DNA of 64,000 nt, taken from Ypsolopha sequella (taxonomy: Eukaryota; Arthropoda; Insecta; Lepidoptera; Ypsolophidae). A model generated the notes under the pieces. That model ran no database searches, was not told where the DNA came from, and worked only from the letters and a program-made list of their open reading frames with translations. The position numbers were made by a program, and so were the translations under genes. The stretch is from the NCBI GenBank assembly GCA_934047225.1, contig OW203986.1, positions 18,169,221 to 18,233,220 on the forward strand. Direction: 5' to 3'. This document shows positions 3,953-61,662 of this stretch, piece by piece (the first letter of the stretch is position 1; the number at the start of each line of letters is the position of its first letter).

Positions 3953-4338
3953 AATAGTAGTTTATGCTACAAGGGCGCAAAGGAATAAATTACGAGGACG
4001 ATTTAAAACACGAGCGTAGCGAGTGTTTTAAACGTAACCGAGTAATTTATTGCTTTTACGCCCGTGTATCATACTACATTTTTCAATGCATAGTGTGAGG
4101 AAATGAAAACAAATATAATCTTGTGAACTTTAAATTATAATTGGCTCAAAAGGACTGTATCCAGAGCCGTTAAACAGTGGAAAAAAAGTATAACGTCTAT
4201 GGTACACAGGAAAGGCTGCAGGTTAGCCAACCATTGTAAATAAATAATAATAATAAAGCCCTAGGGCAAAATAATCGACTTTCTGTTCGGTTTTGATGCA
4301 TAAAAAGTGGGCCTTTACGAGCACTTGCATTGAAAATA
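3953..4338 (+). repeat. Dispersed ~385-bp repeat, copy A
   Basis: This is the same repeat, in opposite orientation, as 32319-32691. Shared blocks include 'ggaataaattacgaggac', 'gtatcatactac', 'aaaggctgcaggttagcc' and 'gcataaaaagtgggccttta'. The first ~125 bp form an imperfect palindrome (gtagtttatgctac... / ...gtatcatactac). Copy A has an extra small palindrome (cacgagcgtagcgagtg) that copy B lacks. It is probably a non-autonomous DNA element. Confidence 0.75.
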
Positions 4339-4546
4339 CGTTTATGTAATGTACGTATATAGCAAACTATTGTTAAAATTTGTCTTCGCTAAAAGTTGTA
4401 TTTTGGCCGTTATAATTATTTCTTAATATTTTGTTACAAAATCGGAGAATCGACCCAAAATTGGGCTCGATTGGCCGTCTTCACTCCAAATCTATATGAG
4501 TACTTGGCCTACTTCCTCCAAACGCGATACCTTCCTATCATCATCA

Positions 4547-4689: not shown

Positions 4690-6525
4690 ACCTCTTTTTC
4701 CTCAAAGATTTTAAAAGTAAAGATAAGCCCTTACCGTAGTATGACAGCACCAAAATGTTTCCACCTTTAAATGGGTGACGTTCACACGTTTGGAATCAAT
4801 GCTCATCTGAACACAGTGATAAAGTTTTGAATTTTTACGACTTTAGTAGTCTGATCAGTTTGCTGACCGTAGGTAGACAGATTGCGCATTCATATTGTGC
4901 GCGCGTCGGCATTATGTTAACGCACATATTCAAAACCAATGCAATAGATTTTAGGTGCTAGGGCTCATCTTAACTTTTGAAATCTTTGTTTTTCCTCCAA
5001 TTTTTCCTTCAACAATCAGTTGTATTAATTTATATTTTTCATGTCTATAAATATGTCCGAAATACGCCGTTTTGCGTTTTTTGATTGTTGTAACTACTAA
5101 TCAAATTCAAAACTCTTTCATTCGTCTGTCCATTTAATTTTAAGGCTTCTACCAACGCCAACGACCTTGAACTAAGGAACTTTGAAACCATTTTATACGA
5201 TAATTATAGCATTTTTCAACAAAAGAAAAATACATAGTAATCTGCATGATACAAATAGTGATGTGGTTTTTCCTGAATTTCATTATAATATACAGAAGTG
5301 AAGCAAGATAATTCTAAGTGTACCCTTATTTCTCGATTTTTTGTTCACTTGTAACAACATAACTGCTGCAGTTTTTATCGAAACGGTATGAAAATTTATA
5401 TTCTTCTAGACAAAATAATACAAAATGATTTGGTTTTCTCAGTTCTTGGAAATCAATTTTATTTTAGATAAAATAAATTAAAAACACACTATTTTCGCAC
5501 GTGTCAGCCGCAGCGACTGATGTAACAGCCATGTTGCAGTGCGAGCTGATAAGGACTTTATTTGAATATGATTTTGTTCGAAATTTCAACTATCACGAAT
5601 CGATTTGCTAATTATTCCGACCTTAAGCATTCTACGGTAAATACCCATTTTACTTACCTATAAAATATTCAATAATAAAAAGTTGAGGATATAAGCCAGA
5701 ATCGACGTCATAGATCTTTTGGAGCTGGAGACTTAATATTCAAACAAAAACCGCACTGTAAACACAGCCAGTAGGCGGACCACAGGATGTAATCCCGGAG
5801 GATGTTGCGCGGCAATTTATGCATAGAGTGGTAGTTTACCTTCCTTGTGTGCGGTTCAACCACAGCAGTGACACACGCCTCAACCTCGACACAGCGAGCT
5901 TTGATAATTGACTAGCGCGTTTCCGTTTCCTTTTTGCTACGGCGTAGCAAGCTCTACGACTCATACTACGTACCCCGAACGCATACGTGCTAGAGTTCAA
6001 CATTTATTTAAGTTTAGGAATTATGGTTTTATGACATAATGTGAAAAATACTTGAATTTTGACGAGTTATCTCAATGCGAGGGTATTAGTATTTAAAAAA
6101 TCTGTGCTGCTCCAACGCTTTCATTTTACACTTGTCTATCCTAGACAATGGAAGTCGGCCGCTCAGGAAACTCACGATTTTGAGGTTATTTTCAATGATT
6201 ATTTAAACTATTACTACTTCAATACAAAAAAAAACAAAAATTAAAACTAAGAAACCTAAATACTAAAAACCTAAACAAAACAAGGACCTAAAAAAAAAAT
6301 ATTTGAAATTAAAAAGAAAAATTTTACAATTTACAGTACATACATAATCCTTTCACTTGATATATTTATATATTATACCTATAATTTCATTGCAAAATAA
6401 TATGAACGAGTATACAATAAATGGAACTGTTTTTAGCTGATATGTTTAAGAATTAATTAAATGTAGTGAAATTAAATATAAAAAGTTCTAATGAAAATTT
6501 AAATAAACACAGGAAAAAGATTATA
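4690..6525. other. Intergenic DNA, nothing recognised
   Basis: No supported gene or RNA. A 61-codon frame near 6059-6244 ends in Tyr/Asn/Lys low complexity and looks like chance. Confidence 0.5.
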
Positions 6526-7126
6526 CAGGATGTTAAGATGAAGTTGCGGAAGCCGGAAACTGGCGATAGTACTCGTCCATACTGTGACAGATCGTACCTC
6601 ATCTGTTCACGTCTCAATTCACAAATAAATGTTATGATAATGGGCAGGAAGATTGTTGTATGTAATCAAATAAATCACGTTGAAATAAATAAAGCAAATT
6701 GAAATCGATCGCGTAGAATAACTGATTTTAAATGATAAATACAGTAAACTCAACCACCGGCCCAAACAATCGGTCCAATATGGAAGGAATTAAGAATAAA
6801 CTTTCAATTTCAAACATTATGGTTTCCAATTATGCGTGAACCCTAAATTAGCTGTTGTTGTCACGCAACTGCCAAGTTGTTGCCACGTAGACTAGATGAC
6901 GCCTTAGGCTTGTCACCATGTGTCTATCTCTTTCACTCTTACTTGTATATTTTTGTCCTGTCCTGCTTACGCCGAGTATATGCTGTTGCCATGTTTTGTT
7001 GTTATGTTGCCATCTCTATTACTCTTGTTTGGTTGTCTCACTTTTGTTCGTTCTGCACGAAAGCGCACATAACACCGTTAGCACCGTTTACGCCGATAGC
7101 ACTGATAACGCTGATATCACATTTAG

Positions 7127-7163
7127 TATATAAATGGGTGAAATGTAGGGTGGGAGGTCATTC
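7127..7163 (+). promoter_or_regulatory. Core promoter in the 5' LTR: TATA box plus arthropod initiator
   Basis: TATATAAA at 7127-7134 is followed by TCATTC at 7158-7163, a perfect match to the arthropod initiator TCAKTY. The initiator A (7160) lies 33 bp after the first T of the TATA box, which is the normal spacing. The first bases after it read 'ttcaattttacaccgccg'. This predicts transcription starting at about 7160 and sets the U3/R boundary. Confidence 0.6.
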
Positions 7164-8460
7164 AATTTTACACCGCCGTCAGTGGAAGTGCTGCAAGAAG
7201 TCTTAAAGGAGTAGTTCATTTTCGAGTTTGTTTGGGGAAGTTTTTGTTTGTTTTAATAGTGATTTTGTTTTCGGAATTTGCGATTAAAATACGGAATGTG
7301 TCAATCTATCTGTTCGTTAGGTCTCGGGACCATTTCGCGTCGCGTTAGCTTTTAGGTGGCGGAATGCCCTTTTTTCGTAAATAGATTCGGTTATGGTCAA
7401 TAGTTTTTGACTTTTCCGACTCGGCGATTGACACAAACGCGTTTGAATTCGTGTAGGGTGAACGAGCGAACGAGCTAGATTCCGCGTTATGTAAAGGGTT
7501 CGATAATCGTCTTTTCAAGTTCCGAAATTAAAGTACGTTCCTAAATAATGTAATAGTGCATAGGTCGATTCAGGGGTTGATGGGGAGGAAGGGAGTATGG
7601 TCTCTTCTTAGTAATGCCGGACGTGGAAACGGGAAGATGTACCAGGGTAACAATGGCATAGGGCTAGTCGCTGGGATATCTTGAAGAGTCAGGCAGGGAG
7701 CTTACAGAGCGGAGGTCGCTCTGGGCTAGATTCAGGTCACCTACTGGTGTGAACGACAGAGTCTAGTTTTAACCTCCTCTGGAGGGAAGCAAGCGTCTGG
7801 GATGGCCTTGCGCCAGTTTTACATACTGGAAACACATCCTCCATGAAAGGCGATGTTTATGGCAAAGCGTCCGAGCCGTGAAGAGGCTGCGATTTGTTCT
7901 GTCCTTTGTCATCTGACTGAGCTGGTCATGGTCTCATATCTATATATTTATATATACACATGATCATATAGGCTATCCCAGCCAGCGGGGTGACGTCCTT
8001 TTTACCTACTGTATCACCCCCTGTCTGAGTAGGGCAAAGTTTTAGGGTGTTAGGCACACAGAGAGGTTTCAACTTGCCTCACTTCTTTCTGTCGATTAGT
8101 TGAGGGGTTGTATGGTGTTTGCTAGCACAATATACAACCACACACACGTTTAATTGTAAATGTGAGGTGACGGACCTCTAGCTTTGAAAATTCACACATT
8201 TAAAAGCCTAGGAACATTTGATTTTAGGGCCAAATGTTAGGTAGGTAAATTCCAAAAATTCAAGTCTATTGTTAGGACATTAATAGGTTTTTTTAGAAAT
8301 TATGCATAGTGGGAGGTTTCAGGTAACTTTCTTCATTGTTCAGGGAAAATAGGTCAATAAATTCAATTATGATAGGTTACAAGTTTTCAAGTAGATAGGA
8401 ACCTCTGAAAATTAGAGTTAGTGATTCAGGAATAGGTTGTTGTTGACTAGTTTGTCTGAC

Positions 8461-8716
8461 AAATAGTTTCATTGTTTACTTATCTGAGAGGGCTTTAAAG
8501 TCCAAAGAACTCCAATTTTGAATGTAAGGACATAAGGCTTTGATATTCAAATAGTTTCATTGTTTATCTGAGAGGGCTTTATAAGTCCAAAGAACTTAAA
8601 CTTTGAATGTAAGGGCATAGGGCTTTGATACTGAAATAGTTTCATTGTTTATCTAAGAGGGTTTTATATGCCCACAGAACACTAATTTTGAATGCTAGGG
8701 CATAGGGCTTTAATAT
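8461..8716 (+). repeat. Three ~87-bp tandem repeats inside the 5' LTR
   Basis: Units begin 'aaatagtttcattgttta' at 8461, 8549 and 8634. They share 'gagggcttta', 'ccaaagaac' and 'tttgaatgtaaggNcataNggcttt'. The units have diverged from each other but are the same in both LTRs, so the array predates the last insertion. Confidence 0.8.
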
Positions 8717-11330
8717 TGGCAATAAATATGAAATGATAGGAAACATAAGTTTCACCATTTAATTATGTCTTAAAATATTGTATTTACTTAGGTATTTCTT
8801 TCAAGAAATAAAGAGACTTGAGTTTGGCACAAAATATGCCTAAATAACATAGAAAGCCTAGATTTAGAATTCAGGTTGATGAAATGTATTCTAGACCATA
8901 AAAGTTCATAACTGTAGTACCTATCAAACCCTTTTTAAGGTCAGTTCGTAGTAAACATTAAGTTATAAAGTAAAATCAAATAGTTTGGTATATAAGAATC
9001 CAAAATAGAGTATAGCAGACTGACGAACCTTTTAGTCAGTATTTACTTACTTACTCCCTTGTCGAAATGACTGCATTGATACAGAGTAGAACCTAGATGA
9101 AATATAGAATGTTTCGGATTTTCTTTTATTACTCAATTGAGTAAGTAACTAATAAACTAAATATCGTGAAAATAGTTCGGGAAATCTTTATTCAAGAGAA
9201 TAATTTCAATTCTTATAAATGTTCAATAAACTTGAAGTACATAACATGATGTATTTGTTTGCATAAATGCTTTCCCTTGTCTGGCAAAATAAAAGCCTTA
9301 ACTGATACTATACACCAAATATGGGGTAGTAAAAGTTGTTCTTCGTCAATGGAATTAAATGAATACATCTTTAGAACAAAAACAAAGTTCTATTAGTATT
9401 TTTAATACTAAATTACCTAGAGCAGATTTCTCTTTCAAAATATATTGAAATTATTCTACTGAGTGTAGTTATAAAATTGACTACATAAATAACTGCAATA
9501 CTGTTAAGGATGAAAGTCACAGTAGTTTCATATTACTAGAAAATCAATGATTTTTAAAGTAAACTTTCTTACATGAAATGAGGGTTGAAAGCCTAATTTA
9601 TTGTATTCAAAAGTTTTAATATATTTGAGACTTATTATGTAAAAACCTTACTGAAACTTGGAGATTTTTAGAAAATGGGTAAAATTCCAACCTGGTAGAA
9701 ATTTGTACTTATCTGACTTGCATCAAATACAACAAAGACGATTGTATTAGAGAAGTTTATTACTGAAGCAACTTACAATTTTGACTTGATAGAAATTCTC
9801 TATTGAATAGTAAACAGAATGACTGTACGCTGAATATGAAAGTCTAAGTTTTTTACTAGATGGTTTTGTCAAATTGACATAGCAACTTTAAGTTGAGTAT
9901 TACCAGCAGTATCTAAGAAATTAATTTTAACTGTCAGTCACTATTTGAGTAGATCTGTTAAAGAGACTGAATCTTTGAATGGGACATGGTGCAACACGAG
10001 TGATTTCAATATTTGTTACTCAAGTATATAATTAGTAACATTTGGTGTATTTGTATAGATGTACTTGTTCTTTTGTCAGGCAAAATACAGCCACGAGCTA
10101 ACTATACACTGAAATGGGGTAGTTTAGCTTACCAATGACATAAGAACAAATAAAATATATTTGGTACAGAAACACAAGATAGCCATAAGTTAGAAATCTG
10201 AAATCATTCTGTTGGATTATTTGTGTCGTTTGTAGTTTTGGTTACTATGATGGTAGGGACGCTCTGGATTTCTTGTTGGTTCTTTACCAGAGCTGTGTAG
10301 TCAGGGAACCAACATAGGCGCGTAAAATTAAAAATAAATAAATAAATCTTAAATTTAGAATTCAAAAAAAAAGTATACACTAAAAAAAGTCACGGGGGTA
10401 TTCCACATCCAAGGGAAGGTACTTCTGAGAAGTTGCCAATATGGCTTTCTTTGAGTCTCTATTTTATTGACCAGATAATCACAGATGTGAGAATTTTACT
10501 CACTGTCCTATGGACTTATTCGAAGATTACCAGCTAAATTAGTAATTTTCGTATAGAAGTATCTATCGAGTAATAAGTTCTACAACATACATAAAGGTCA
10601 GCTGTTAGAATACTATTCAGCTTTGATCATCAATAAATTATTAAATTTCAAACTCAGAAATACCTCACCTCATCCATCCCCAATTACTGGTAGTGGTTAT
10701 TAAAAAAAAATAATAATAATGCATTTTATTCATAACATAAACAAACAAAATATGAATGTGATGTATCATCTTAAGTAACGGGTATAGTCTAACATAGTAA
10801 ATTCACATAGCCTCTTAAGAGGCTGACTGGCGCAGAATTGCTACAGAGATTTTATTCACCTTTTTATTATTTGAAACATTAATGAATTTTACATCTAGAT
10901 TTGTTTACAAAGTATTATCTCTATGACTTTCATATATTGGCTTAACTGACAAACAGTGAAATTTCTAATCTGAACATTTTACCAATACTTTATATTTTCT
11001 GATTTTACTATCTAAATCTACGAATTTGGTTTTAATTATTTTATGTCCAATTTACTTAGCACGTGAAAGATAAGTTATATTTTAGAACAGGACTATTAAT
11101 AAGGGTTTGTTAGCTATCTTCATCTCTGAATCGCTTCTAAAGAATTTGGGTTACTACTTAAGGCGCAACGTAAGGTTCTAATCTGACGATCACACTCTGG
11201 CCATATATCTGTTAAAATCATTTCTATTAAGCACCAAACGTTAAACTATGTAGGTTATAAGTGGGTTGTTATTCGGGTCGATGGAGTTCAGTGAGAGACA
11301 AAGGGTAGTGTTACAGGGTTTAGTACAATA

Positions 11331-11350
11331 TGGGTAACCGTGACCAGTAT
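11331..11350 (+). promoter_or_regulatory. Putative tRNA primer-binding site
   Basis: The sequence TGGGTAACCGTGACC starts three bases after the LTR end. TGG is complementary to the CCA end of tRNAs. The block ACCGTGAC also occurs in the arginine-tRNA primer sites I recall for some insect LTR elements, but the match is imperfect. The primer tRNA cannot be named without a search. Confidence 0.45.
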
Positions 11351-14300
11351 AGGTATTTTGGGCTTATTTTAAGTAATTTGGTGCTTTTAGAAATGGTTTG
11401 ATACAGAAATGTCACCCAGTTTTGGGTACAATTTGCTGTTCGTGTAAATAGGAGAAGTGATTTAGAGTGTTACGATAGATAAATATTTATATTTATAAGA
11501 GGTAAACAGTATATTGTAAATTTGGTCCCGTGGACGAAGACAATGTAAATTTGTCAACAATGATCAAGGTAAACATTAGCTTCTTTGATAGGAAAGTTAA
11601 CTTCTGACGGTTCCATTGACTGCGTCACTTGTCTTAGGTGTCAGGGGAAGTACTCCAGTACTGACGTACAGTCTCCGTCTTGGTTGAAGATTTAGGGGCA
11701 TCAATAACGGATCCAAAATCTGGAAAATAAAATGAGTCAATTATTATAATACTTTATCTCTAGCTTTTGCTTAGTACAGCGGGCTAAATTCTTAATTCAG
11801 GGTCTTTCAATGAACGTACCAGTATTAAGGGCCAACAATATTTTGACAAAGGTTATGTATTGTATTTTGCTTAGTTTATGGAGTCAAGTATTCAAATACA
11901 AAGATTGACACAAGTTAGTAGGGTTGAAGTAGGTTCATTAACAGATGTGATATAATCTATGAGGCTATAAAATTAAAGAGAAAGTTATTCTGCCAACACA
12001 GTAGTGTTAGTAAAAATTACATATCTACCGATTTGGTGCTTTGCAACATGGTTTTTCAAGTAAGACCTACGGCCAACTGTTTTATTGACCTTGAAGAGAA
12101 TTACAATGGTCATTAATTAACAACTAATGTATGAAAGGCCTACCCCTCTGGGAGACAGGCATGAGTATATGTATGTACTGTATGGAACTACAGAGGTTAT
12201 CACATGTATTGCGGGGCTATGGGACTTTAGTATAATTAAACGGGAACCTAATGATTGATGAATTGGATTTAACTTTGAAAGTAAGTCGAAGTATATAGGT
12301 ACCTTGTATGCGTGAAGCCTGTTAGACGTACGGTAGATGGTAACATATCACTTTTACACGGAACTATGGGAAGATTCTGTCCATCCAGGTTATAGGTAGT
12401 GCTCCAACTTTGTACAATTCTTCAGAAGTTAAGTATGTTGTAGAGAACTCCGTAAGGCAAGTCCGGTGTCTTGCCCTTTTATCGACAGTGTGACCGACAT
12501 CTGTAAGTAAATGAAAAGGTTTATGAAATGTTTGTTTATGGTGATGAAAGTTAAATTTGTACGAAGATAATTCAAGAATTTTAATGCTTGTTGGCTCTTA
12601 GAAACAACGACTATCGCATGAAAAGCTTCGTTTTCGTGTAATAATTAAGTGTAAATCTAATAATTTCGAAGTAGAATCCAACTGGAAATGTTTACGTTTG
12701 TAAAAGCGGTACATACCTTTCTTGTGAAATAATTTTGCGTCCGAGTTACAGTAGATATGCTCATGGATCATTTTCGATTTTGTTTTCGGTATCTTCTAAG
12801 TGAAGCTTCTTTTGCGGTAGGTCCGTCATGGAATTTAATTTTAAATTAAAGAAAGCGTCCGTCACTGAGCAAATAGCGTCTGTCAGCTTCAGTTTGAATT
12901 TGTTTTGTTTGGTATGTAGAGTTTGTCACAGGTTAGCGAGATTTTTAAAGCGCTAGATATATTAAAGCTGTTCATATATAGCAAACATTTTCTACATAAT
13001 TTGATTTTACTTTAGGAGACATTTTAGTTTTATAAGTAAATTTGTAAGGTTTTATTTTAGTTGTATTTCATGTTATTTTAGTTTTTATGTTTCTGTATAA
13101 AGAGCTAAACCGAAATGTAGAATATAACCATAGAGTATATTGATGAATGTAACCACAGGGTCTGTTCCGTTTTGGAGACAATGATCATTGTACGCTGGGT
13201 TTGCGTTTGGACGTGGGTAGAAATTATTTAAAAGCTGGATTTATTAAAAGGTTTATGGTATAAATAACAAAACCAAATCAATAAATTAATTCAATTTGCA
13301 CTTTTATGTCAGTTAAATTTAAATTATGAGAGAGTTAATGATTGTGTACCCCAACTTTATATTAATTTCGAATGTTTGATTGTTTAGACAGATAGCGTTT
13401 AAAGTAGTGGCTAGTGAGCGTACAAGAGGATCGTAATGCTTAAAAGGAATGGGGAAAGTAGAAAATTACCGAAGTAAGTTGAATCAGTGTGTAGGTTAAA
13501 CTTTGTAACATTGTTCGATGTGTTGATGTGTCACATGGGTTTCTGTAAAATTGTTTGTCATATTCCTAGTTCTTAGATAGAAACACAAAATGAGAAGATA
13601 TAGTACTTACCCGTTCATGTGTGTGATCCTGCAAAACCTAGTTCATACAACCGTCCTGCTTTATACGTTTGTCTCGTTTGCGCTACCGTCGAAACTCGTC
13701 GCTTTATCTCTGTCTTTCGCCGCCGGTGTTTTGATCAAGCAACAAGCTCGATATTCAGTTGACGATATAAGAATGACAAGTGTAGTATATTTCTTCTTTA
13801 TGTCGATGGTTGTAGTATGGAGTTGAGTTATTATTAAATACTTAGGTATCTACAGTTGTTTATTTACGTTTATTTTCCATTAAAATACTAGCAGTTCCAT
13901 CTAGTGCATGAACTAGGAACTTATTGGGTCGTCAAAATTGGGACACTTATTGACGAGCAAGCGTAACAAAAGATAGGTAGTTGGTACCGGAATAAATTTA
14001 TAGATGGCGTTAATACATTATGTTTCATGACGAGTTAAAAATGTTCCAAATTCCTTTTATCAAATGATTATATTAATTGTTCTTATTACTACAGATTTAT
14101 GTTAGCTTTGCAAGTAAAGTCATTTCGAGATTTGCTACTTGCCAAACAGTTTGTATTTTAAACTACTGGCTTTATATATGGTTTCATTTGTGTTGAAATA
14201 AATTACATAATATTCATCATTTACTAAAGTAAACTTCAATGTTTAGAAAAAATTTATGACGGGAGATAGTAGGGGGGGGTGACCTTCAAATGTCGAATTT

Positions 14301-15975
14301 CAATATAACAAGAGAATTTTATTAATGTTGGAGTTTGTTTATTTACGCTAAATATATTATCTTATATTTATTTAGAATTCTGGATAAACCATGGCGAGAA
14401 TCACATGGAATTACGTTCAGTAGGTACCTAGTGCAAATGTTGATGAGTGAGTTACAAATATATAGACGTGTAAAATATAGACGACGGTTATCTAAAAATA
14501 ATTGGAAATTTATTGTACGTAATAAACATATTAGTGTGTGATATGTCTATTTATTGTATTTTTATGTTTTATGGTTAATTATCGATTCGCATCGGCAGGG
14601 ATCCGTGCGCGAGGTTTAGATGTATTGTCTTGCTTTGTAAGCATAGACCACCTTCTTCATTAGGCAGTTTTGGGGATCCTTTGTGAAAACATAAGTAGAT
14701 GCATGGGTTCCGACGATTGGTTTTCAAACTTAAGGTTGACAGTTACATGGGTAGATAAACTAAAGCTGTTTTATTTAAATAATTGTTTTCTTTTTGGTTA
14801 TTCTCAAAGTAAATATGGGGGTGTTGTCTAAGGCGGTATTTGTAGTATGTACTGTATGAGTGTATTGTATATATTAGAGATTGAGCAGGTGTAATTTGCG
14901 TAGGTTTATATGCCAAATTTTGAGAAGGAGTTACAATTAATATTATGTCAGGACCAACGAAACAATTATGGAAAATAGTATTTATTTTAGTTAGTTGAGA
15001 ATGGGGAAAGGTTAAATATAGTATAGTAGTTAAAACATTATTTAAATTTAATTAATGTGTATTGATATTGTCATCATACACAAAGTAAATACCTACCTAT
15101 AATGTTTAGACTTTGGATTTTACAAATAATAGATATGGAATGAAGAATGAATTGGTAATGGGTAATAGAATTAGGGTTCTGTATGTAAAGCCTCACTTTC
15201 TATTAGAGGGTCCAGTATGAAAAGTAATAAGTGTTGATAAATCAAATAAGAATGTGTAAGTGTAAATTTAAAATGGGAATAAGCTATTAGTAGAAAATCG
15301 GGTGCCTACCGAAGTGAGGATTTAGTACAAAAAGAGTAATATAAAATTAAGAGGTTTTGCTGATTTATTGATGGTCCAAAATAATGATTTCTGATAAAAA
15401 TTGAGGGAAAAAGTTTATTGTTAGGTGAGATATGTAAGTACGTTGTTTCAAATAGAAAATAAATAATACCGTCAAAACTTTATTTTATTAAGGGGAAGTA
15501 AAATTTTCATACATACAAGAGAAAGGAGTAAATTAGTAGTACGACAAGGGATCGACGTGTTAATAGTACTGTAGAAAAGGTTATAGATTGCGTGTTGGTT
15601 TGGTTATAGTCTTGGACGATAACTTCAGGGTATTTCAGGGTTGCGTAATTAGTATTTTTAATATATGTAGACAGTGAAGAACAATTTATATTGATTGAAG
15701 ATCTGGATGTCGAACTCACGAGGATCGCAACTAATGTGTTGAAGGGTTAGATCGAGAACTGAGTTGTACTATAAGTTATCTTTGTTGTACTTTGATAAAT
15801 GCAAAAATCTATTGATCTAGAAGTTTTTCTTAAAGTGAAAGTAGATAAATATCTTATAAATAATGGCTAGCTTAACATTTAATTTTTAGAGAACAAAAAG
15901 AAATATAAGTAAATTAGGTAGTGTTTTAATCTGACTGGTGGATACTGTATGTTATTTTCACACCAATAATCAAAT

Positions 15976-16045
15976 GTCTCTGTGGCCGAGTGGTTGAATG
16001 GTCACCTAGGAAGTAGGAAACCGGAAGTTCGAATCTCTAGTGACG
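15976..16045 (+). tRNA. tRNA-like sequence inside the LARD internal domain
   Basis: A perfect A-box (TGGCCGAGTGG, 15983-15993) and a B-box-like AAGTTCGAATC (16025-16035) are spaced as in a Pol III tRNA gene. The acceptor strands GTCTCTG and TAGTGAC pair at most positions. The GGCCGAGTGG D arm is typical of Leu/Ser-type tRNAs. The anticodon and T stems are degenerate and no anticodon can be assigned. It is probably a captured tRNA or SINE head. It could also provide a Pol III start inside the element. Confidence 0.5.
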
Positions 16046-17220
16046 CTAACGTATTCCGAATTCATTTTTTGTGTTTTTATACTATCTTATTCGTATAGGT
16101 TGTTTTATTTATGTAGATGTTGTATTAAAAATATAATATTTATGTTTGGTATGATAGCCTTTATTTTACATTTGATTTCGCATAGGACGCGTGCGTGACG
16201 TCAGCATTTATTTACTAGATTTGGGCTGTACAAGCAACTAGTGCCTATGTGCTAGTATACTTTTATGAAGCTGAGGGCCCAATTAAATTATATATACGAG
16301 TATCTTGTGAACGAAGTACAACTGAACAACCTACACTTTAGTTTATATAGCTTGAAGTAATCGGTTGCGAAATTTAAAGGTTTAGTCTATGAAAGTCAGG
16401 TTCCCTGACGATACCTACTGAATTCATTAGAATGATATTTTAAAGCAATTATTACTACTGTTAGTAAAAACTAGAATAACTTAAAAATATTTTAAATAAT
16501 TTAGCATCTTCTGGTTATAATTTGTAGGGTTGTCAATATTAATTATAGTATTTACTATTTTTGTTTACTTGCAGGGAATTCGGTCATTAAAAATTAGACA
16601 GAATTTGATAATTAAATGGGAAAAAAAAAAAACTGTTAATGACTTTCATTGGTAGTTAGAATTTTACTTTAAGGAATTGAATAAAATCTATTTAATTACA
16701 AAAAGGTCTTGTTTTATTTAATGAAATATTTAAGGACAAATGGAAAAGGAAGTAGACAGTACGCCACTGATGAAGTTTTATATTTTACAGGTAGATGAGG
16801 AAGAACTTACTTATTAAGTACAAAGGGAAGTAAGATTGGGGGAAAGTAGAGAAGAGAAAATTTAAGATTGGGGGGAAGTAGAGAAGAAAATTAAAAATTT
16901 ATGAAATTTTAATATGTTGACTGTGTAAATGCTTTGTCAATTGATAGTAAATTAAATAAAAATAAAAAAAAGGTACAAGATCGTATTTTAATAAATTAAT
17001 TTATTAAGAAATGAAATGTAAAAAAAAAAATATTCGGAAGTTTATTAAAAGCAGTTTATTCCAATTTCTCGTTGTCTTATTGAAATAATAAAAAAAAATA
17101 TATTAAATTATAGAAATTAATTTGGGTTTTATTTTAATTAGTGGTAGTTAGTTATGTTATAAGTTAGTTTATAAGTTAGCTCAAAAGGTATTAGCTTAAG
17201 AGGTATTAAAGGATAATATT

Positions 17221-19215
17221 TTAAATAAGAGGTACTTAAATCATTTAGATTTGTCCATATTTGTTGAGCTGGTGGTTCGTTAGAGAAAGTGTTAGAGAGA
17301 ATGAGGAAGGAAGTATGTTGTCGGTGGAAGAGATAGAAAGATACGACCATGACAATTAACTTTGTCTTTGGCAAAGAAAAGGGCTCTAGCGAGACAACAG
17401 TTTCGGGAATGTGGACTCATGTTTATTGTTGTGTTATCCTGGAGACATTACACTACACAACAAACTATTTAGTTGAAAAGGAGTTAGGTTAGAGTCGTCT
17501 TGACTAATTAGCAGTATAAACTGCGATTCTAAATAGTTTCACTACACACGCAGCTAATGCATATTTCCTCGGCAACTATACATTCTCCGAATGGTTGATT
17601 AGAATTTAACATTGGAAGAGATTCTAGACTGGGGAATTAGTTATTTGGGTACTTATCTTGAGAGCTATTAAAGTGATCTCGATTCAAGAAAGAGACACAA
17701 AGGCACATCTATTGTTCAAATTGAAAAAATAGAATTTGGCTAGAAGGTTGTTGTGTTACCACTAGGGTAGAGTTAATTCACAACTAACTTCTTTGAAGGA
17801 TTGAGTTCTCCTTGTTTGATGGATATTTATCTGTAATTAATAAACCTATAGATTAGAATTTCAACTGATTTAATTTTTGATTAACCGTTTGGTATAAAAA
17901 TTACACCACACATATTCATTCTGGGAGGAACATGATAATAAATACCGAATTTATTTAGATATGGTTATCTTTTATGCAATTGTGAATGGGCATATTTGCC
18001 AATGTTGACAATTGGCGTATATGACACTTTACGTGTCTAGCACTCTGCGTAATTACCTTTGTGTAGATATGCACTCATGAGTGTAAACGTAGTTGAAAAT
18101 TCAGCGAATGCTTGCATTTTGGCGTTTAAAAGGACTTTGCGTACATTTAAAATAAGTTATATTTTTTTTTTTTTATTCTTTATGTAATTGTGAATGGGCA
18201 TATTTGCCAATGTTGACAATTGGCGTATATGACACTTTACGTGTCTAGCACTCTGCGTAATTAGCTTTGTGTAGATATGCACTCATGAGTGTAAGCGTAG
18301 TTGACAATCAGCGAATGCTTGCATTTTGGCGTTTAAAAGGGCTTTGCGTACATTTAAAATAAGTTATATTTTAAGTTAGTTTTAAAATGTACATAAAGGT
18401 GGTGTTAAAAAGGTAAAGGTGGTATTAAAAAGGTTAAGGAGGTATTAAAAGGTAATGGTGGTATTCAAAAGATAGTCATGTTAAATGGAGGTAATTAAAA
18501 TTAAATAGGTTCATATTTGTAGGGCTGGTGGCTTGTTAGGGAAATTGTAAGAGCGGATGAGGAAGTCAGAGTGTGTTGGTGGAAGGAATGGAATGAAACG
18601 ACTTTGACATATGACTATGACGTTGACAACAAAAAGGGCCCTAACAAGACAACAGTTCGAAGGTGTGGACTTAAATTTATTGTCACCATATCCTGGAGAC
18701 TATATACTTCACATAAACTTTTAAGTTGAATTGGTGTTAGGTTAGAGTCTTAAAGACTAAAGGACAGTATATACTGTGATACTTAAAGGTTTAACTCTAC
18801 ACGCAGCTAATGCTATCTTCGGCAACACTATACATTCTCCGAATAGTTGGTTAGAATTTAATACTGGGAGAGATTCCAAGCTGAACAATTGCTCATTTGG
18901 GTATCTGTATGGATAGCTATTAAAGTGATCTTGGATTATGAAAGAGGCGCAAAGCGTGTCTACTTAAATTGAAAAAATAGAATTTGTCTAGAAAATCTTT
19001 GCGGTGTCACTAGGACAAGGTCGTCTCACAAACGATCTCTCTGGGAATTTCAGATCTCCTTGTTTGACGGACACATTATTCGTGAACAATTAAGCAATGG
19101 TTTGGAGTCTCAATCGGTTAAGTTTTGATTAACTACTAGGTATAAACACACACCACACGTGAACGGTCTGGGAGAAAGGTGATAATAAATTAATATCAGA
19201 GTGAACATTGTTATC
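17221..19215 (+). repeat. Nested tandem repeats near the 3' LTR
   Basis: Block A (about 17221-17960) recurs, diverged, as A' (about 18481-19215). Both carry 'agacaacagtt', 'tatcctggaga', 'cacgcagctaatgc', 'ggcaac' with 'tatacattctccgaat', and 'ctgggag'. Between them a 208-bp block is repeated head to tail almost exactly (17973-18180 and 18181-about 18376; both contain 'ttgacaattggcgtatatg'). Before each A block lie several short 'ggtattaaa' units. The period of the outer repeat is about 1260 bp. Confidence 0.75.
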
Positions 19216-19281
19216 GTGTATTTGTGAATGATGGGAGAGAAAATTTCCTTCGTTTAAGGCTTGCTAATCTGCGTAAATTTT

Positions 19282-19289
19282 GGGGAAAG
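19282..19289 (+). promoter_or_regulatory. Putative polypurine tract before the 3' LTR
   Basis: GGGGAAAG lies three bases before the first base of the 3' LTR, after an 'aaatttt' run. The position fits the plus-strand primer of LTR elements, although the tract is short. Confidence 0.45.
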
Positions 19290-19836
19290 CGCTGTGACAG
19301 ATCGTACCTCATCTGTTCACGTCTCAATTCACAAATAAATGTTATGATAATGGGCAGGAAGATTGTTGTATGTAATCAAATAAATCACGTTGAAATAAAT
19401 AAAGCAAATTGAAATCGATCGCGTAGAATAACTGATTTTAAATGATAAATACAGTAAACTCAACCACCGGCCCAAACAATCGGTCCAATATGGAAGGAAT
19501 TAAGAATAAACTTTCAATTTCAAACATTATGGTTTCCAATTATGCGTGAACCCTAAATTAGCTGTTGTTGTCACGCAACTGCCAAGTTGTTGCCACGTAG
19601 ACTAGATGACGCCTTAGGCTTGTCACCATGTGTCTATCTCTTTCACTCTTACTTGTATATTTTTGTCCTGTCCTGCTTACGCCGAGTATATGCTGTTGCC
19701 ATGTTTTGTTGTTATGTTGCCATCTCTATTACTCTTGTTTGGTTGTCTCACTTTTGTTCGTTCTGCACGAAAGCGCACATAACACCGTTAGCACCGTTTA
19801 CGCCGATAGCACTGATAACGCTGATATCACATTTAG

Positions 19837-19873
19837 TATATAAATGGGTGAAATGTAGGGTGGGAGGTCATTC
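19837..19873 (+). promoter_or_regulatory. Core promoter copy in the 3' LTR
   Basis: TATATAAA at 19837-19844 and TCATTC at 19868-19873, identical to the 5' LTR promoter. It would direct transcription outward into the 3' LTR and the flanking DNA. Confidence 0.5.
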
Positions 19874-21170
19874 AATTTTACACCGCCGTCAGTGGAAGTG
19901 CTGCAAGAAGTCTTAAAGGAGTAGTTCATTTTCGAGTTTGTTTGGGGAAGTTTTTGTTTGTTTTAATAGTGATTTTGTTTTCGGAATTTGCGATTAAAAT
20001 ACGGAATGTGTCAATCTATCTGTTCGTTAGGTCTCGGGACCATTTCGCGTCGCGTTAGCTTTTAGGTGGCGGAATGCCCTTTTTTCGTAAATAGATTCGG
20101 TTATGGTCAATAGTTTTTGACTTTTCCGACTCGGCGATTGACACAAACGCGTTTGAATTCGTGTAGGGTGAACGAGCGAACGAGCTAGATTCCGCGTTAT
20201 GTAAAGGGTTCGATAATCGTCTTTTCAAGTTCCGAAATTAAAGTACGTTCCTAAATAATGTAATAGTGCATAGGTCGATTCAGGGGTTGATGGGGAGGAA
20301 GGGAGTATGGTCTCTTCTTAGTAATGCCGGACGTGGAAACGGGAAGATGTACCAGGGTAACAATGGCATAGGGCTAGTCGCTGGGATATCTTGAAGAGTC
20401 AGGCAGGGAGCTTACAGAGCGGAGGTCGCTCTGGGCTAGATTCAGGTCACCTACTGGTGTGAACGACAGAGTCTAGTTTTAACCTCCTCTGGAGGGAAGC
20501 AAGCGTCTGGGATGGCCTTGCGCCAGTTTTACATACTGGAAACACATCCTCCATGAAAGGCGATGTTTATGGCAAAGCGTCCGAGCCGTGAAGAGGCTGC
20601 GATTTGTTCTGTCCTTTGTCATCTGACTGAGCTGGTCATGGTCTCATATCTATATATTTATATATACACATGATCATATAGGCTATCCCAGCCAGCGGGG
20701 TGACGTCCTTTTTACCTACTGTATCACCCCCTGTCTGAGTAGGGCAAAGTTTTAGGGTGTTAGGCACACAGAGAGGTTTCAACTTGCCTCACTTCTTTCT
20801 GTCGATTAGTTGAGGGGTTGTATGGTGTTTGCTAGCACAATATACAACCACACACACGTTTAATTGTAAATGTGAGGTGACGGACCTCTAGCTTTGAAAA
20901 TTCACACATTTAAAAGCCTAGGAACATTTGATTTTAGGGCCAAATGTTAGGTAGGTAAATTCCAAAAATTCAAGTCTATTGTTAGGACATTAATAGGTTT
21001 TTTTAGAAATTATGCATAGTGGGAGGTTTCAGGTAACTTTCTTCATTGTTCAGGGAAAATAGGTCAATAAATTCAATTATGATAGGTTACAAGTTTTCAA
21101 GTAGATAGGAACCTCTGAAAATTAGAGTTAGTGATTCAGGAATAGGTTGTTGTTGACTAGTTTGTCTGAC

Positions 21171-21426
21171 AAATAGTTTCATTGTTTACTTATCTGAGAG
21201 GGCTTTAAAGTCCAAAGAACTCCAATTTTGAATGTAAGGACATAAGGCTTTGATATTCAAATAGTTTCATTGTTTATCTGAGAGGGCTTTATAAGTCCAA
21301 AGAACTTAAACTTTGAATGTAAGGGCATAGGGCTTTGATACTGAAATAGTTTCATTGTTTATCTAAGAGGGTTTTATATGCCCACAGAACACTAATTTTG
21401 AATGCTAGGGCATAGGGCTTTAATAT
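21171..21426 (+). repeat. Three ~87-bp tandem repeats inside the 3' LTR
   Basis: Same array as at 8461-8716, with units starting at 21171, 21259 and 21344. Confidence 0.8.
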
Positions 21427-24400
21427 TGGCAATAAATATGAAATGATAGGAAACATAAGTTTCACCATTTAATTATGTCTTAAAATATTGTATTTACTTA
21501 GGTATTTCTTTCAAGAAATAAAGAGACTTGAGTTTGGCACAAAATATGCCTAAATAACATAGAAAGCCTAGATTTAGAATTCAGGTTGATGAAATGTATT
21601 CTAGACCATAAAAGTTCATAACTGTAGTACCTATCAAACCCTTTTTAAGGTCAGTTCGTAGTAAACATTAAGTTATAAAGTAAAATCAAATAGTTTGGTA
21701 TATAAGAATCCAAAATAGAGTATAGCAGACTGACGAACCTTTTAGTCAGTATTTACTTACTTACTCCCTTGTCGAAATGACTGCATTGATACAGAGTAGA
21801 ACCTAGATGAAATATAGAATGTTTCGGATTTTCTTTTATTACTCAATTGAGTAAGTAACTAATAAACTAAATATCGTGAAAATAGTTCGGGAAATCTTTA
21901 TTCAAGAGAATAATTTCAATTCTTATAAATGTTCAATAAACTTGAAGTACATAACATGATGTATTTGTTTGCATAAATGCTTTCCCTTGTCTGGCAAAAT
22001 AAAAGCCTTAACTGATACTATACACCAAATATGGGGTAGTAAAAGTTGTTCTTCGTCAATGGAATTAAATGAATACATCTTTAGAACAAAAACAAAGTTC
22101 TATTAGTATTTTTAATACTAAATTACCTAGAGCAGATTTCTCTTTCAAAATATATTGAAATTATTCTACTGAGTGTAGTTATAAAATTGACTACATAAAT
22201 AACTGCAATACTGTTAAGGATGAAAGTCACAGTAGTTTCATATTACTAGAAAATCAATGATTTTTAAAGTAAACTTTCTTACATGAAATGAGGGTTGAAA
22301 GCCTAATTTATTGTATTCAAAAGTTTTAATATATTTGAGACTTATTATGTAAAAACCTTACTGAAACTTGGAGATTTTTAGAAAATGGGTAAAATTCCAA
22401 CCTGGTAGAAATTTGTACTTATCTGACTTGCATCAAATACAACAAAGACGATTGTATTAGAGAAGTTTATTACTGAAGCAACTTACAATTTTGACTTGAT
22501 AGAAATTCTCTATTGAATAGTAAACAGAATGACTGTACGCTGAATATGAAAGTCTAAGTTTTTTACTAGATGGTTTTGTCAAATTGACATAGCAACTTTA
22601 AGTTGAGTATTACCAGCAGTATCTAAGAAATTAATTTTAACTGTCAGTCACTATTTGAGTAGATCTGTTAAAGAGACTGAATCTTTGAATGGGACATGGT
22701 GCAACACGAGTGATTTCAATATTTGTTACTCAAGTATATAATTAGTAACATTTGGTGTATTTGTATAGATGTACTTGTTCTTTTGTCAGGCAAAATACAG
22801 CCACGAGCTAACTATACACTGAAATGGGGTAGTTTAGCTTACCAATGACATAAGAACAAATAAAATATATTTGGTACAGAAACACAAGATAGCCATAAGT
22901 TAGAAATCTGAAATCATTCTGTTGGATTATTTGTGTCGTTTGTAGTTTTGGTTACTATGATGGTAGGGACGCTCTGGATTTCTTGTTGGTTCTTTACCAG
23001 AGCTGTGTAGTCAGGGAACCAACATAGGCGCGTAAAATTAAAAATAAATAAATAAATCTTAAATTTAGAATTCAAAAAAAAAGTATACACTAAAAAAAGT
23101 CACGGGGGTATTCCACATCCAAGGGAAGGTACTTCTGAGAAGTTGCCAATATGGCTTTCTTTGAGTCTCTATTTTATTGACCAGATAATCACAGATGTGA
23201 GAATTTTACTCACTGTCCTATGGACTTATTCGAAGATTACCAGCTAAATTAGTAATTTTCGTATAGAAGTATCTATCGAGTAATAAGTTCTACAACATAC
23301 ATAAAGGTCAGCTGTTAGAATACTATTCAGCTTTGATCATCAATAAATTATTAAATTTCAAACTCAGAAATACCTCACCTCATCCATCCCCAATTACTGG
23401 TAGTGGTTATTAAAAAAAAATAATAATAATGCATTTTATTCATAACATAAACAAACAAAATATGAATGTGATGTATCATCTTAAGTAACGGGTATAGTCT
23501 AACATAGTAAATTCACATAGCCTCTTAAGAGGCTGACTGGCGCAGAATTGCTACAGAGATTTTATTCACCTTTTTATTATTTGAAACATTAATGAATTTT
23601 ACATCTAGAATTGTTTACAAAGTGCTATTTATCTCTATGACTTTCATATATTGGCTTAACTGACAAACAGTGAAATTTCTAATCTGAACATTTTACCAAT
23701 ACTTTATATTCTCTGATTTTACTATCTAAATCTACGAATTTGGTTTTAATTATTTTATGTCCAATTTACTTAGCACGTGAAAGATAAGTTATATTTTAGA
23801 ACAGGACTATTAATAAGGGTTTGTTAGCTATCTTCATCTCTGAATCGCTTCTAAAGAATTTGGGTTACTACTTAAGGCGCAACGTAAGGTTCTAATCTGA
23901 CGATCACACTCTGGCCATATATCTGTTAAAATCATTTCTATTAAGCACCAAACGTTAAACTATGTAGGTTATAAGTGGGTTGTTATTCGGGTCGATGGAG
24001 TTCAGTGAGAGACAAAGGGTAGTGTTACAGGGTTTAGTACAATACGATCAACTTTTACTATGGAGCCAACCCTCGAATCACGAAAAAAAATCAGCTGTTT
24101 CATAAAAAAGTTACATAGCTACCTGACCCGTCCATACGATCTACTTTTCGTGAAAAAAAATTGAGAAATCGAGAAAAGAAAAACAGTTGTCTCATACATT
24201 TTGGTCGAGGAGCTATGTAACTTTTTTATGAAACAGCTGATTTTTTTTTTGCGATTCGAGGGTTGGCTCCATAGTAAAAGTTGATCGTATGGACGAGTAC
24301 TATCGCCAGTTTCCGGCTTCCGCAACTTCATCTTAACACCCAGTATATTATTTTGAGAGTTCTTGTCTATATTTTAATAGCCTGGAAATTGATTTAAAAA

Positions 24401-29634: not shown

Positions 29635-30317
29635 TTAGTTTGTCTGTCGAAAGTTTAGACTGAATCAGTGTCGAGTTTAGTGAATGTCCTACTCAGTAGG
29701 ACCTACTGGATATTTACATGTATCACAAAATGGTAATATTTAGAAATATCGAAATAATACTCACTCATCCTGAAATCTCCGAAAGTTCAGGTCTTAAAAG
29801 CTTAAAATTAGGCAGGTAGGTTCTTGAGGCGGCTCTTCACACGTCTGTCACATTCTTGTTAGATATGAATAATCACGTATATTTAAGTATAAATAAGGAA
29901 TCATATTATATTTATATATATGTAAAGAAACAGTATTTCTTTATTTTTATTTGGAACTTAAATTTTGCCGCGGTCCACGCGCCGTCGGTAAAGCAGACTT
30001 TGTCGATAAAGTGGTAATAGGTTAGATCACGCCATTTTGAGAAAAACAACAATATGGAGTCGTGTCAAGAGTGAAGTGAAATTTGTGTCAATAAAACTAT
30101 ATTAAAACAACTATTTATAATGATTAAGAAATTGACTTGTAAAAGAATAAACTTTTAATGTCGTTTCTTTGTTTACAGGTAAGTGTTATGGTATAATAAG
30201 TGTTGTTTAGTATACGATAGCATAAAACTAATTCATACAATAAAATCTTTGTTTACAGAGCAACGCATAGTTTGTTTTACTTGTCAATCATCTAAAAAAG
30301 ACGATAATCATCTTATA

Positions 30318-30572
30318 CAACGTGTAACAGAAAGGTGTAACCATATTTGAAGAGCTTATTAATTCAATGATATAGAACAACTTTTACTATGGAGTAAACC
30401 CTGAAATCTCAAAAAAAAATCTACCCTTCCATACATTCGGCCGAGCGGCATTGCATTTTTCTATGAAACAGTTTTTTTTTGAGATACTGGTTTTGTTCCA
30501 TAGTAAAAGTTATTCTAAACCATTGACTGAATAAGCTCTTCAAATATGGTTACACCTTTCTGTTACACGTTG
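30318..30572. mobile_element. 255-bp Tc1/mariner-type MITE with TA target duplication
   Basis: The ends CAACGTGTAACAGAAAGG and their mirror are next to TA on both sides. The arms are about 115 bp and contain 'caacttttactatggag', shared with the MITE that hosts the giant LTR element. From about 30600 to 31080 no feature was recognised. Confidence 0.75.
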
Positions 30573-31080
30573 TATAGCCCAGGCTAAGAATAAAGGATCT
30601 TCAATTTGTTTCTCTTTTAGAACCCTGGGCAAAAACCTGGTCTTTGGATATTTTAGATATTTCAGTTGCATACGTTTATAATCAAAGGAGGAGGTTTAGT
30701 TTTTATGTAACGCATCCTTACAACCGATACGCATACCATAGCTCAATATGCACAGTATAACATTTGCATGTTCCATATATTATTTTCGTACAAAATGTAT
30801 ATTATTAATATGATTAAAATAAATGAACTCTCTTCACATGTTTGTCCAAACGATACATGAGAGAGGGTGTTGTTGAAACATAATTTAGTCACGCCCGTCC
30901 TTCATTAACTCTCTTCAGATGGCTTTCACTTACAGAGACATTACAATTAAATTTTAGGTAAATTATTTAAACTGGACGGAAATTAAATATTATTTTGCGG
31001 GTGAATGTGGTGATGTGCTTTGAAATACGAAATATAATTGAACATTTTACCACAAAAGAAATAATAAGAGGACCTATGTA

Positions 31081-31330
31081 GTGACTAGAATAGAAAAATG
31101 AATGCTTCGGTGGTTTGGACATGTATAGAGGATGAATGAAAGTAGAGTGACGAAAGAAATTTATGGTGCGCAAGTCGAAGGTAGTGCTCATCCAGGCCGC
31201 CCTGGAAAGACATATGCTGACCTGGTCATAGACGGTCTTATATTGTGGGTACTTTTGACATTGCCAAAAGGTGTGTCAGGATCGTAGCAGATGAAAATCT
31301 GTAGTCTCTGCCTACCCATTTAGGAGACAG
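31081..31330 (+). pseudogene. LINE ORF2 C-terminal fragment
   Basis: A decayed frame reads RWFGHV, then RMNESRVTKEIYGAQVEGSA, then a GRPGKTYADLV block, followed by a frame-shifted piece with 'ggtgtgtcaggatcgtagcag'. The order 'W.GHV.RM...R..K..Y.A.V.G....GRP...Y' is the standard end of a common lepidopteran non-LTR family. The next fragment at 33505-33645 carries the following part of the same kind of protein. It ends in a (GTAT)n-like run. Confidence 0.65.
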
Positions 31331-31664
31331 TCGTGAGTATATGTATGTATGTATGTAAGAAATAATAGTCCTACGTACAAAAAATTCACCTTTCAAAAAC
31401 AGTTAAATAAAAAGCTACTTTCGCTTGCCATACGACAATAGAGTGTTTGTCTCGCACAGCGATGCAAGTCTAAAATTTTATTTAATTACGACTCTGCGCC
31501 CCTCTTTCCGTCGTGTAACTCTATCCCTTCTGATGGTGCGCCCGGGTGGGCCGCCGATGTATAGGCATTTGTAGCTTCTTGTAGCCTCGTTACGTTACTC
31601 GTTGAAAATTATACTGTTATCGATTTGAATTAATTTGATGGATTTTGACAAAAACAGTTTGTTT

Positions 31665-37849: not shown

Positions 37850-37955
37850 TCAGAAACAAATCCAAAGACAAGATTTTGAAAAAAATCCCCGGGCCAGGAT
37901 TCGAACCTGCGACCTCTTATTATCAAGACAAGCGCGCTACCCGAGGTACGCTACC
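37850..37955 (-). repeat. Third copy of the palindrome's tRNA-like sequence, D arm deleted
   Basis: 'cagaaacaaatccaaagaca', then 'ccccgggccaggattcg' and 'agacaagcgcgctac' match the right arm of the palindrome at about 2350-2440, including ~40 bp outside the tRNA-like part. The D arm is broken: 'caattgcgcca' is missing before 'ccgaggta'. It shows that the tRNA-like unit belongs to a dispersed family. Confidence 0.65.
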
Positions 37956-37959
37956 TAGA

Positions 37960-53989: not shown

Positions 53990-54404
53990 AATAAGAATAG
54001 AGTTTATTTTTCTCAAAAACACAGGAAGAATATAGTTTAGGTACATGTTATTTATAGCTTAACATAATTTTCCAAAACAATATCTAACACTAAAATATAC
54101 CTTACTAATAAACATTACTCGCGGTCCTCAGACTAGGCCGAGCCTGATTCATGAGGGCCTTTATTAACGTGTGCACAGTTAATAGAACTTTCGTCGACAA
54201 TTTAAAATTTTGAATTGATGTCATATACTATTTGTGAATGTAAATATGAATAGCTTTCCAGTTAAACAAAGCTGTGCCTTTAGTAATTGTAGAAAAGTAA
54301 CAATATAAATTTAACTAAAGTATATAAACAAAGTTAACAACATGGTATATAATATATTATATAGTAGTATAATAAATAAATGTAAGTTTTAACTAAATGA
54401 TTAA

Positions 54405-54448
<44 letters not shown>

Positions 54449-54850
54449 AAAAGCTATTGTACAATATGGAATAATTTTTCAGTATCATCATAATTCAGAT
54501 TAAATAAATATTTGGTAACCACCTTTTTAACATTAAATTGAGTTAAACTAGTTATTTTGCAAAATGAATTTATTTTATTATATAGAAAGGGAAAAAGGAA
54601 CGAGGGAAAACGCTGGGCAAATTTGGTCCGACATAAGGGGGTCGTAAATCTTGGGCCTCTTCGTGAAGGTACTAGCTCTGTGGAAGCACTTCTATGTCCA
54701 GTAAGGACAGCTTTCAAGACGTACAGCTGACGCACACGCAAAACCCCACTTTCTTCATAAAGTTTATCGGTGGGATAGCGATATTGTTTTCTGTGCATTA
54801 CCTTAAGGACTGAGCGCTGTGCTATTTCTATATATGTGCTATATAATTAA
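53990..54850 (-). pseudogene. LINE 3' part: RT C-terminus, 3' UTR and (TTATTC)n tail
   Basis: The minus-strand frame (about 54850-54454) reads YIEIAQRSVLKVMHRKQYRY, then RVRQLYVLKAVLTGH, then PSRRGPRFTTPLCRTKFAQR and ends FNLNYDDTEKLFHIVQ. This is the familiar end of a Jockey/CR1-type reverse transcriptase in moths (Q.R.VLK, LY....L, YN/KI). The 3' UTR (54453-53990) contains a (TA)n microsatellite at 54409-54445 and ends in 'aagaataagaataagaat' on the plus strand, the element's short-repeat tail. The copy is 5'-truncated. Confidence 0.75.
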
Positions 54851-54879
54851 ATAATACTTATTATATTTTATATTATTTA

Positions 54880-55110
54880 GGCCTTGGCTGAAAATCAGCG
54901 ACGTAAGTTCATGGAGCTTGCGGCATTATGCTGAGCCAGGGACCTTTTTGTTGCTACAATCGTTATTTATTCCAATGTTTCATTATTATTATTACTTTTC
55001 TGTTTTCTTGGTTTTTTGTATAATGCTTTTTGTTTTTTTTTTTTTTTGGTTTGTGTGGCAACAAATAAAGGTTTTCTTTTTTCTTTCTTTCTTTATTACA
55101 CGAAAACTAC
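54880..55110 (+). repeat. Probable LINE 3' end with (CTTT)n tail
   Basis: 'ccttggctgaaaatcagcga', 'cggcattatgctgagcc' and 'caacaaataaaggttttc' followed by a (ttct)n run look like a non-LTR 3' UTR. It abuts the truncated end of the minus-strand LINE. Confidence 0.45.
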
Positions 55111-55379
55111 TTTCCCTTTTGAGCTACGAATATGTAATAATATGTTATAAAATATACATACATTAATCACTAGTCTATACAAATTTCAAGCCTTTTTTGC
55201 AACAGAGACAATAATAATGTTTTTCTGACATCAACCTTTGTGATTGCGAATCTTGTCACTGAAATTTCTCCAGGACGTCAACATTTGAAGATAAGAACAA
55301 AAAATGTCGGTTATTATCTAAAGAACATCTTCATACAACACCCAAGCGTTAAAAAAATCAAGGGCATACTTACCATAAT

Positions 55380-55600
55380 TTTTAGGGTTCCGTACCCGAC
55401 GTGTGTCAAACGGGACCTAATTACTAAGCGTCCGCTCTTTGTGTGTCTGTCCGTTTGTAACAGGGGTCATCAGCCGTATTAGGCAGCCCATTGAAATTTT
55501 TTACAGAATATTTGTTACTATGGCTTCTATTACGGCAAATAATAAAATTAAATAAAAAATTAAATCAAAGATTTATTCCCCGTACAAAAAATTCTCAGCT
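55380..55600 (+). repeat. Decayed 'agggttccgtaccc' repeat
   Basis: It shares 'agggttccgtaccc', 'cgggaccNNattactaa' and 'gtctgtccg' with 29095-29352. A further trace (tagggttccgtactt) lies at about 55695. Confidence 0.6.
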
Positions 55601-55799
55601 CTTTCTTAAAGCCAGTAATACTACATACTTACAAGTTTCAAATTAGGTCTGATTGTTGTTAATACTCTAAAGTAACCAAAAAATTATAAAATTAGGGTTC
55701 CGTACTTGGAGGGCGCCGAATTGTTTGTCAGGCCCTGCCATTTTAGCGTCTTGTTTTTTTGCGCCGTAATTTTTCTGCGGCATTTGTATTGTTACCATA

Positions 55800-56310
55800 A
55801 TATAAATCTATGTTTGAACACTTGGCGATTTATCCATCGCAAGGAGATATAATAAATTATCATTATATAATTGCAGTATAGAAACGCAGAAAGAAAAGTA
55901 AATCTGGATGTGAGGAGCACTGAACCGGGTTTCGAACCCGGGACCTCTAGCTTACCGGGCGATTGCTCTACCAACTGAGCCATCCAGGTCTCAACACAAC
56001 TCGTGAATTTACCGATGTGCTTTCCCATATTGCAATGATATTTACCCACTTTACAGTGTGCCACTTGGCGCCTAGAGGACGCTACTGTATTCAAAGCTAG
56101 TCAAAGGCCATTATGCCCTACCGTCACCTGTTACAGCATCGGGTAGTAAAGAATACCCATTACTCTTACCGAAACCATGAAATAAATTTCTATGTTCGAA
56201 CACTTGGTGATTTATCCATCGCAAAGAGATATACATTAACATTATATCATTGCAGCTTCAGAGCTCCTCACATCCAGATTTACTTTTCTTTCTGCGATGT
56301 TTTAGGATTA
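55800..56310 (-). mobile_element. SINE with Thr-like tRNA head, plus partial inverted relative
   Basis: On the minus strand 55988-55913 reads as a tRNA: D arm GCTCAGTTGGTAGAGC, T arm CCGGG-TTCGAAA-CCCGG, and loop CCGGTAA (anticodon GGT, Thr). It is followed by 'ctcctcacatccagatttac' and 'ttttctttctgcg'. The acceptor stem pairs only partly. About 56170-56310 carries a second part of the same family ('atttctatgttcgaacactt', 'tccagatttacttttctttc'). Confidence 0.7.
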
Positions 56311-59765: not shown

Positions 59766-59828
59766 AATTTTAGTATTGGCTAATAACTTATTTCATTTAA
59801 AATTTCACAATTATTTTCAGTGTATAGA

Positions 59829-61649: not shown

Positions 61650-61662
61650 TAAAAAGCGTATC

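Follow-up and report, generated by a model that had tools for sequence, protein, structure and literature searches.

LARDs (large retrotransposon derivatives) were reportedly described from barley and its relatives by Kalendar et al. in 2004. Their long terminal repeats (LTRs) are approximately 4.4 kb and their cores approximately 3.5 kb in length and, according to the excerpted source, they had been reported only from plants as of 2012 (PMC3532108). Among insects, Culex yielded one LARD-like element (Arensburger et al., 2010, according to PMC3286476), LARD annotation classes were counted in the honey bee, Apis (PMC4028053), and a LARD class was found to comprise 8.84% of the genome of the moth Scirpophaga incertulas (PMC10923946). 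These reports indicate that LARDs as a category had already been recorded in insects. As excerpted, they give class totals or a bare mention rather than a single element with its borders and empty site, and LARDs are not mentioned in the excerpts of one additional source (PMC3212995).

Two other groups of non-autonomous LTR elements are relevant. The cqUNK elements of Culex quinquefasciatus, for which there is no master copy, have LTRs of 125–931 bp, total lengths of 1.6–14.6 kb, and target site duplications of mostly 5 bp, as given in the accessible text of PMC3286476. Members of the Helenus group, which belong to the TRIM group, generate 4-bp duplications in animals and share primer sites with Gypsy elements, with some using tRNA-His (PMC10886601, in the portion available).

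We analyzed a 64-kb window, by which we mean the whole stretch of DNA from the moth Ypsolopha sequella under study, and identified an element of 17,459 bp (6583..24041) that is organized as an LTR, a non-coding interior, and a second LTR (Table 1). Each LTR has the form TGTGACAGATCG...GGGTTTAGTACA, with TGTGACAG as its first bases and AGTACA as its last. Self-BLAST aligned the pair at 99.874% identity over 4753 columns, with 2 mismatches and 2 gap openings. The element carries two of the traits of LTR retrotransposons at the class level, namely paired direct LTRs with TG...CA ends and a target site duplication for which an empty site is present. An earlier note on this DNA had proposed direct repeats of 4745 and 4749 bp with TG...CA ends and ATAC doubled at both borders; self-BLAST and MAFFT returned the same coordinates and lengths, and both copies of ATAC are where that note had placed them. 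The remainder of the window has no similarity to the element at E up to 1e-3 except for one stretch of 47 bp. This stretch, at 12138-12184 in the interior, recurs outside the element at 31310-31355 (87%) and is perhaps the tail of a LINE or SINE.

Table 1. Coordinates of the element, its candidate signals and its insertion site within the window.
Feature	Position	Strand	Basis or remark
Left part of interrupted foldback (MITE-like) arm, insertion target	6515..6582	+	Aligns to other arm
Target site duplication ATAC, left copy	6579..6582	.	
5' LTR	6583..11327	+	4745 bp, TG...CA; self-BLAST and MAFFT
Candidate core promoter	7127..7163	+	TATA box TATATAAA (7127) and Inr-like TCATTC (7158); weak, usual spacing
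85-bp tandem repeat, 3 copies, 5' LTR	8460..8717	+	Same in 3' LTR at 21170-21427
Non-coding interior, G-rich/C-poor plus strand	11328..19292	+	7965 bp
Candidate primer binding site	11331..11347	+	TGG, four bases, then CCGTGACCAG (10-mer); putative complement of the tRNA-His 3' region
Repeat unit of ~750 bp, copy 1	17202..17943	+	74% to copy 2
200-bp unit, twice in tandem, between the ~750-bp copies	17965..18372	+	96%
20-bp array in interior	18394-18471		
Repeat unit of ~750 bp, copy 2	18460..19190	+	74% to copy 1
Candidate polypurine tract GGGGAAAG	19282..19289	+	Weak, 8 bases; followed by CGC and the 3' LTR
3' LTR	19293..24041	+	4749 bp, TG...CA; self-BLAST and MAFFT
Target site duplication ATAC, right copy	24042..24045	.	
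Right part of interrupted foldback arm	24046..24128	+	Aligns to other arm
Uninterrupted other foldback arm (empty site)	24203..24354	-	Alignment of joined flanks

On the basis of its architecture, the closest kind of described element is the LARD, with which it shares LTRs of several kb and a long core without protein coding. It differs from LARDs in that its interior, at 8.0 kb versus ~3.5 kb, is about twice as long, in that its host is an insect, and in that a single element is known here. We therefore regard it as a LARD-like element that is unusually large and whose insertion is unusually clear. As in cqUNK (PMC3286476, as far as its accessible text describes these elements), the interior is non-coding and contains repeats, the LTRs are near-identical, a target duplication and a candidate primer site are present, and no helper is known; unlike in cqUNK, the LTRs are 4.75 kb, the element is 17.5 kb, and the duplication is 4 bp. 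Helenus elements resemble it in being non-autonomous LTR elements with a 4-bp duplication, whereas they are short and carry tRNA-like sequence in the LTR. Helenus and TRIMp3 are short and have tRNA- or 5S-derived sequence in their LTRs; identity with either was rejected, as the LTRs here measure 4.7 kb and Rfam gave no match in the element up to E = 1. In the literature searched, which covered few subscription journals and did not extend to Repbase, no individually described lepidopteran element with LTRs of this size was found.

The insertion lies within one arm of a foldback, and the other arm, which is uninterrupted, preserves the sequence of the empty site. When the two flanks were joined with a single ATAC (6515-6582 and 24046-24128), they matched the minus strand of 24203-24354 with 94% identity in an alignment of 153 columns. 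The junction falls within 86 identical, gap-free columns, 52 to its left and 34 to its right, and mismatches occur only farther out. An empty site with one ATAC establishes a true insertion of 17,459 bp that was accompanied by a second ATAC, i.e., a 4-bp target duplication. A segmental duplication, which the earlier note had named as a possible refutation, was ruled out, since the uninterrupted arm displays the pre-insertion sequence with its single ATAC. A second and diverged foldback at 30314-30576 has parts that are 79-86% like the first, and its matches do not extend across the junction.

In the MAFFT alignment, the LTRs are distinguished by three substitutions and a gap of 4 bp, and every difference lies within 102 of 4749 columns (LTR columns 4318-4419; window positions 10900-10997 and 23610-23711). 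In simulations, four random events clustered within 102 bp in 3.1e-5 of cases and three in 0.0014 of cases. Such tight clustering suggests that the patch more likely arose in one event than by separate mutations, whether by gene conversion with a further copy as donor or because the assembly switched between sequences. Counting the three substitutions, K between the LTRs is ~0.0006. With a butterfly mutation rate of ~2.9e-9 per site and generation, the age of the insertion is estimated at ~110,000 generations, or less if the patch reflects a single event. The insertion of the element is apparently recent.

No recognizable protein-coding sequence is present in the element. The longest frame from stop to stop encodes 102 amino acids in the interior and 119 in the LTR, and these lengths were equaled in 83 of 200 and 29 of 200 dinucleotide shuffles, respectively, indicating that shuffling yields open frames just as long. 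We then compared all 12 frames (six from the interior and six from the 5' LTR, with stops given as X) with Pfam and detected no family at E up to 1. As a positive control, the same masked scan was applied to the three plus-strand frames of 54001-63962, one of which matched RVT_1 at 8e-13. The negative result therefore carries weight for domains that match as strongly, although a very diverged gag could escape. A gag-pol hidden in the interior or 5' LTR was rejected on this evidence, and the gag and pol frames by which an autonomous Gypsy, BEL, or Copia element is recognized are absent from the element. Searches of predicted proteins with the LTR frame at 6847-7203 yielded 5 candidates, none of them at E<=0.01, and those with the interior frame at 13590-13823 yielded 1 candidate and likewise none at E<=0.01. 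Exact LTR or junction patterns had 0 matches in collections of viral and prokaryote contigs, as expected for a moth repeat, and the start of the LTR (6583-8300) had no match among plasmids. Because the viral, prokaryote, and plasmid collections are not insect genomes, these zero matches say little.

The interior has an unusual base composition, with 20.6% G and 11.9% C on the plus strand. GC skew ranged from 0.15 to 0.44 across seven windows of 1 kb (11328-18327, which is the interior short of its final 965 bases), and six of the seven exceeded every one of 45 windows of 1 kb outside the element (mean 0.014, sd 0.063, maximum 0.159). In four windows of the 5' LTR, skew was 0.08-0.19. This excess of G over C fits a sequence that may live partly as single-stranded RNA or cDNA. 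Repeats are also a feature of the interior, and in five ungapped pieces of the 750-bp repeats mismatches summed to 39, 43, and 35 over the three phases, revealing no codon-phase signal. A tRNA-like A box (15983) and B box (16027; span 15983-16035) occur in the interior, outside of the LTR; with E values to 1 allowed, Rfam returned no match to them or to any other part of the element.

Candidate signals for replication are present and vary in quality. The 10-mer CCGTGACCAG at 11338-11347, 10 bases past the 5' LTR, occurs once in the 64 kb where 0.01 occurrences are expected, although it was picked post hoc. It may be the complement of the 3' part of an insect tRNA-His, with an imperfect fit: the tRNA would need two bases between TGG and the 10-mer, and four are present here. 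None of the three tRNA-Ser-like genes that ARAGORN identified in the window fits the primer site. Priming at 11331-11347 would make the plus strand the RNA strand. The TGG at 11331-11333 is indeed three bases after the 5' LTR, as had been noticed previously. The purine tract that the same note had described before the 3' LTR was recovered only in part: GGGGAAAG is in place, but it is short and interrupted, with CGC between it and the LTR, and it is the weakest part of that observation. Longer purine runs occur farther from the 3' LTR, at 19170-19179 and, as GGGAGAGAAAA, at 19233-19243. Of 1000 shuffled LTRs, 107 likewise contain a pairing of TATA and Inr-like motifs such as that in the 5' LTR, and matches occur on the reverse strand of the LTR as well, so that a U3/R border near 7160 is only a proposal. 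Were the promoter at 7127-7163 to be correct, R-U5 would account for ~4.2 kb of the LTR and the strong-stop DNA would be unusually long. When LTR RNA was folded in windows of 150 nt, seven of 46 windows fell below a z of -2 and one reached -5.0 (30 shuffles each). A 401-nt region (7560-7960) gave a z of -1.26, with 11 of 100 shuffles equally good, and a structured RNA in the LTR was set aside.

Other features were identified in the window. A frame of 296 amino acids (59828-60715), which we take to be a LINE frame, matches RVT_1, and 865 of 2087 candidates were relatives at E<=0.001. Among the matches listed (120 of the 865), many are nameless and every named organism is a moth or butterfly. 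This frame makes a lepidopteran host very likely and narrows to Lepidoptera the insect host that the earlier note had named. Both arms of a near-perfect palindrome of 1.1 kb (96%) at 1503-2616 carry a tRNA-Ser(TGA) call, and a tRNA region at 37887-37959 is related to these calls. Two tandem copies of an 880-bp unit that are 99.2% identical occupy 62181-63912, and an open frame of 356 amino acids at 56626-57696 has only a sub-threshold match in Pfam.

We consider it highly probable that the locus holds a complete LTR element of 17,459 bp that lacks recognizable protein genes, that inserted into the arm of a foldback with duplication of ATAC, and that was likely copied via an RNA intermediate with proteins supplied by a different LTR retrotransposon. 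This accords with the description in the earlier note of a complete, inserted, LARD-like element with an ~8-kb internal region devoid of gag or pol frames, which the empty site, the LTR pair, the lack of Pfam matches, and frames no longer than in shuffles all uphold. Since the element has no coding frame, movement in trans is what we would naturally infer. Transcription would start in the LTR, priming would occur immediately downstream of the 5' LTR, with tRNA-His as a possible primer, and reverse transcription and integration would be accomplished in trans by the proteins of a helper element. The 4-bp duplication suggests that such a helper is perhaps of the Gypsy type. Somewhat doubtful, yet the strongest of the competing accounts, is that the element is not an independent non-autonomous lineage but a derivative of a living autonomous family with the same giant LTRs, in which the internal region was swapped. 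Helenus elements can have the same primer sites or internal ends as a Gypsy or Copia helper (PMC10886601, in its available portion), which lends this account a precedent, whereas nothing else in the window resembles the element at E up to 1e-3 save for the 47-bp stretch.

It is improbable, in our estimation, that the element is instead a decayed or rearranged element that had once been autonomous, with its coding sequence replaced or mutated past recognition, in which case LARD would be a label for one wreck that moved once. A single element is in view, and one copy cannot prove a propagating family of non-coding elements. However, the near-identity of the LTRs suggests that the element most likely lacked coding capacity by the time it inserted, and six interior frames are without any trace of a gag-pol domain. 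We assign a very low probability to a duplicated segment or an error of assembly, in which one 4.7-kb stretch was doubled or a repeat was misresolved. The assembled sequence is the sole source of data, and differences between the LTRs that are packed into 102 bp may reflect a switch between haplotypes or copies. What speaks against such an artefact is that the element has TG...CA termini, that it lies between two copies of ATAC, and that the second foldback arm preserves its empty site.

An extension of the preferred reading, that of a non-coding element moved by a helper, is that Lepidoptera harbor a whole family of giant LTR elements without coding capacity, which would travel as strand-biased RNA of 13-17 kb, have a short U3, an R-U5 of 4 kb, and strong-stop DNA of >4 kb, and would be selected for length and RNA features rather than protein. 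We regard this as speculative and rather unlikely. In the window, a very large non-coding retroelement has inserted precisely and, it appears, recently into insect DNA, and the empty site is visible alongside. It makes concrete the questions of which helper would serve a 17-kb passenger, how reverse transcription would proceed with an LTR of several kb, and what causes the plus strand to be so G-rich.
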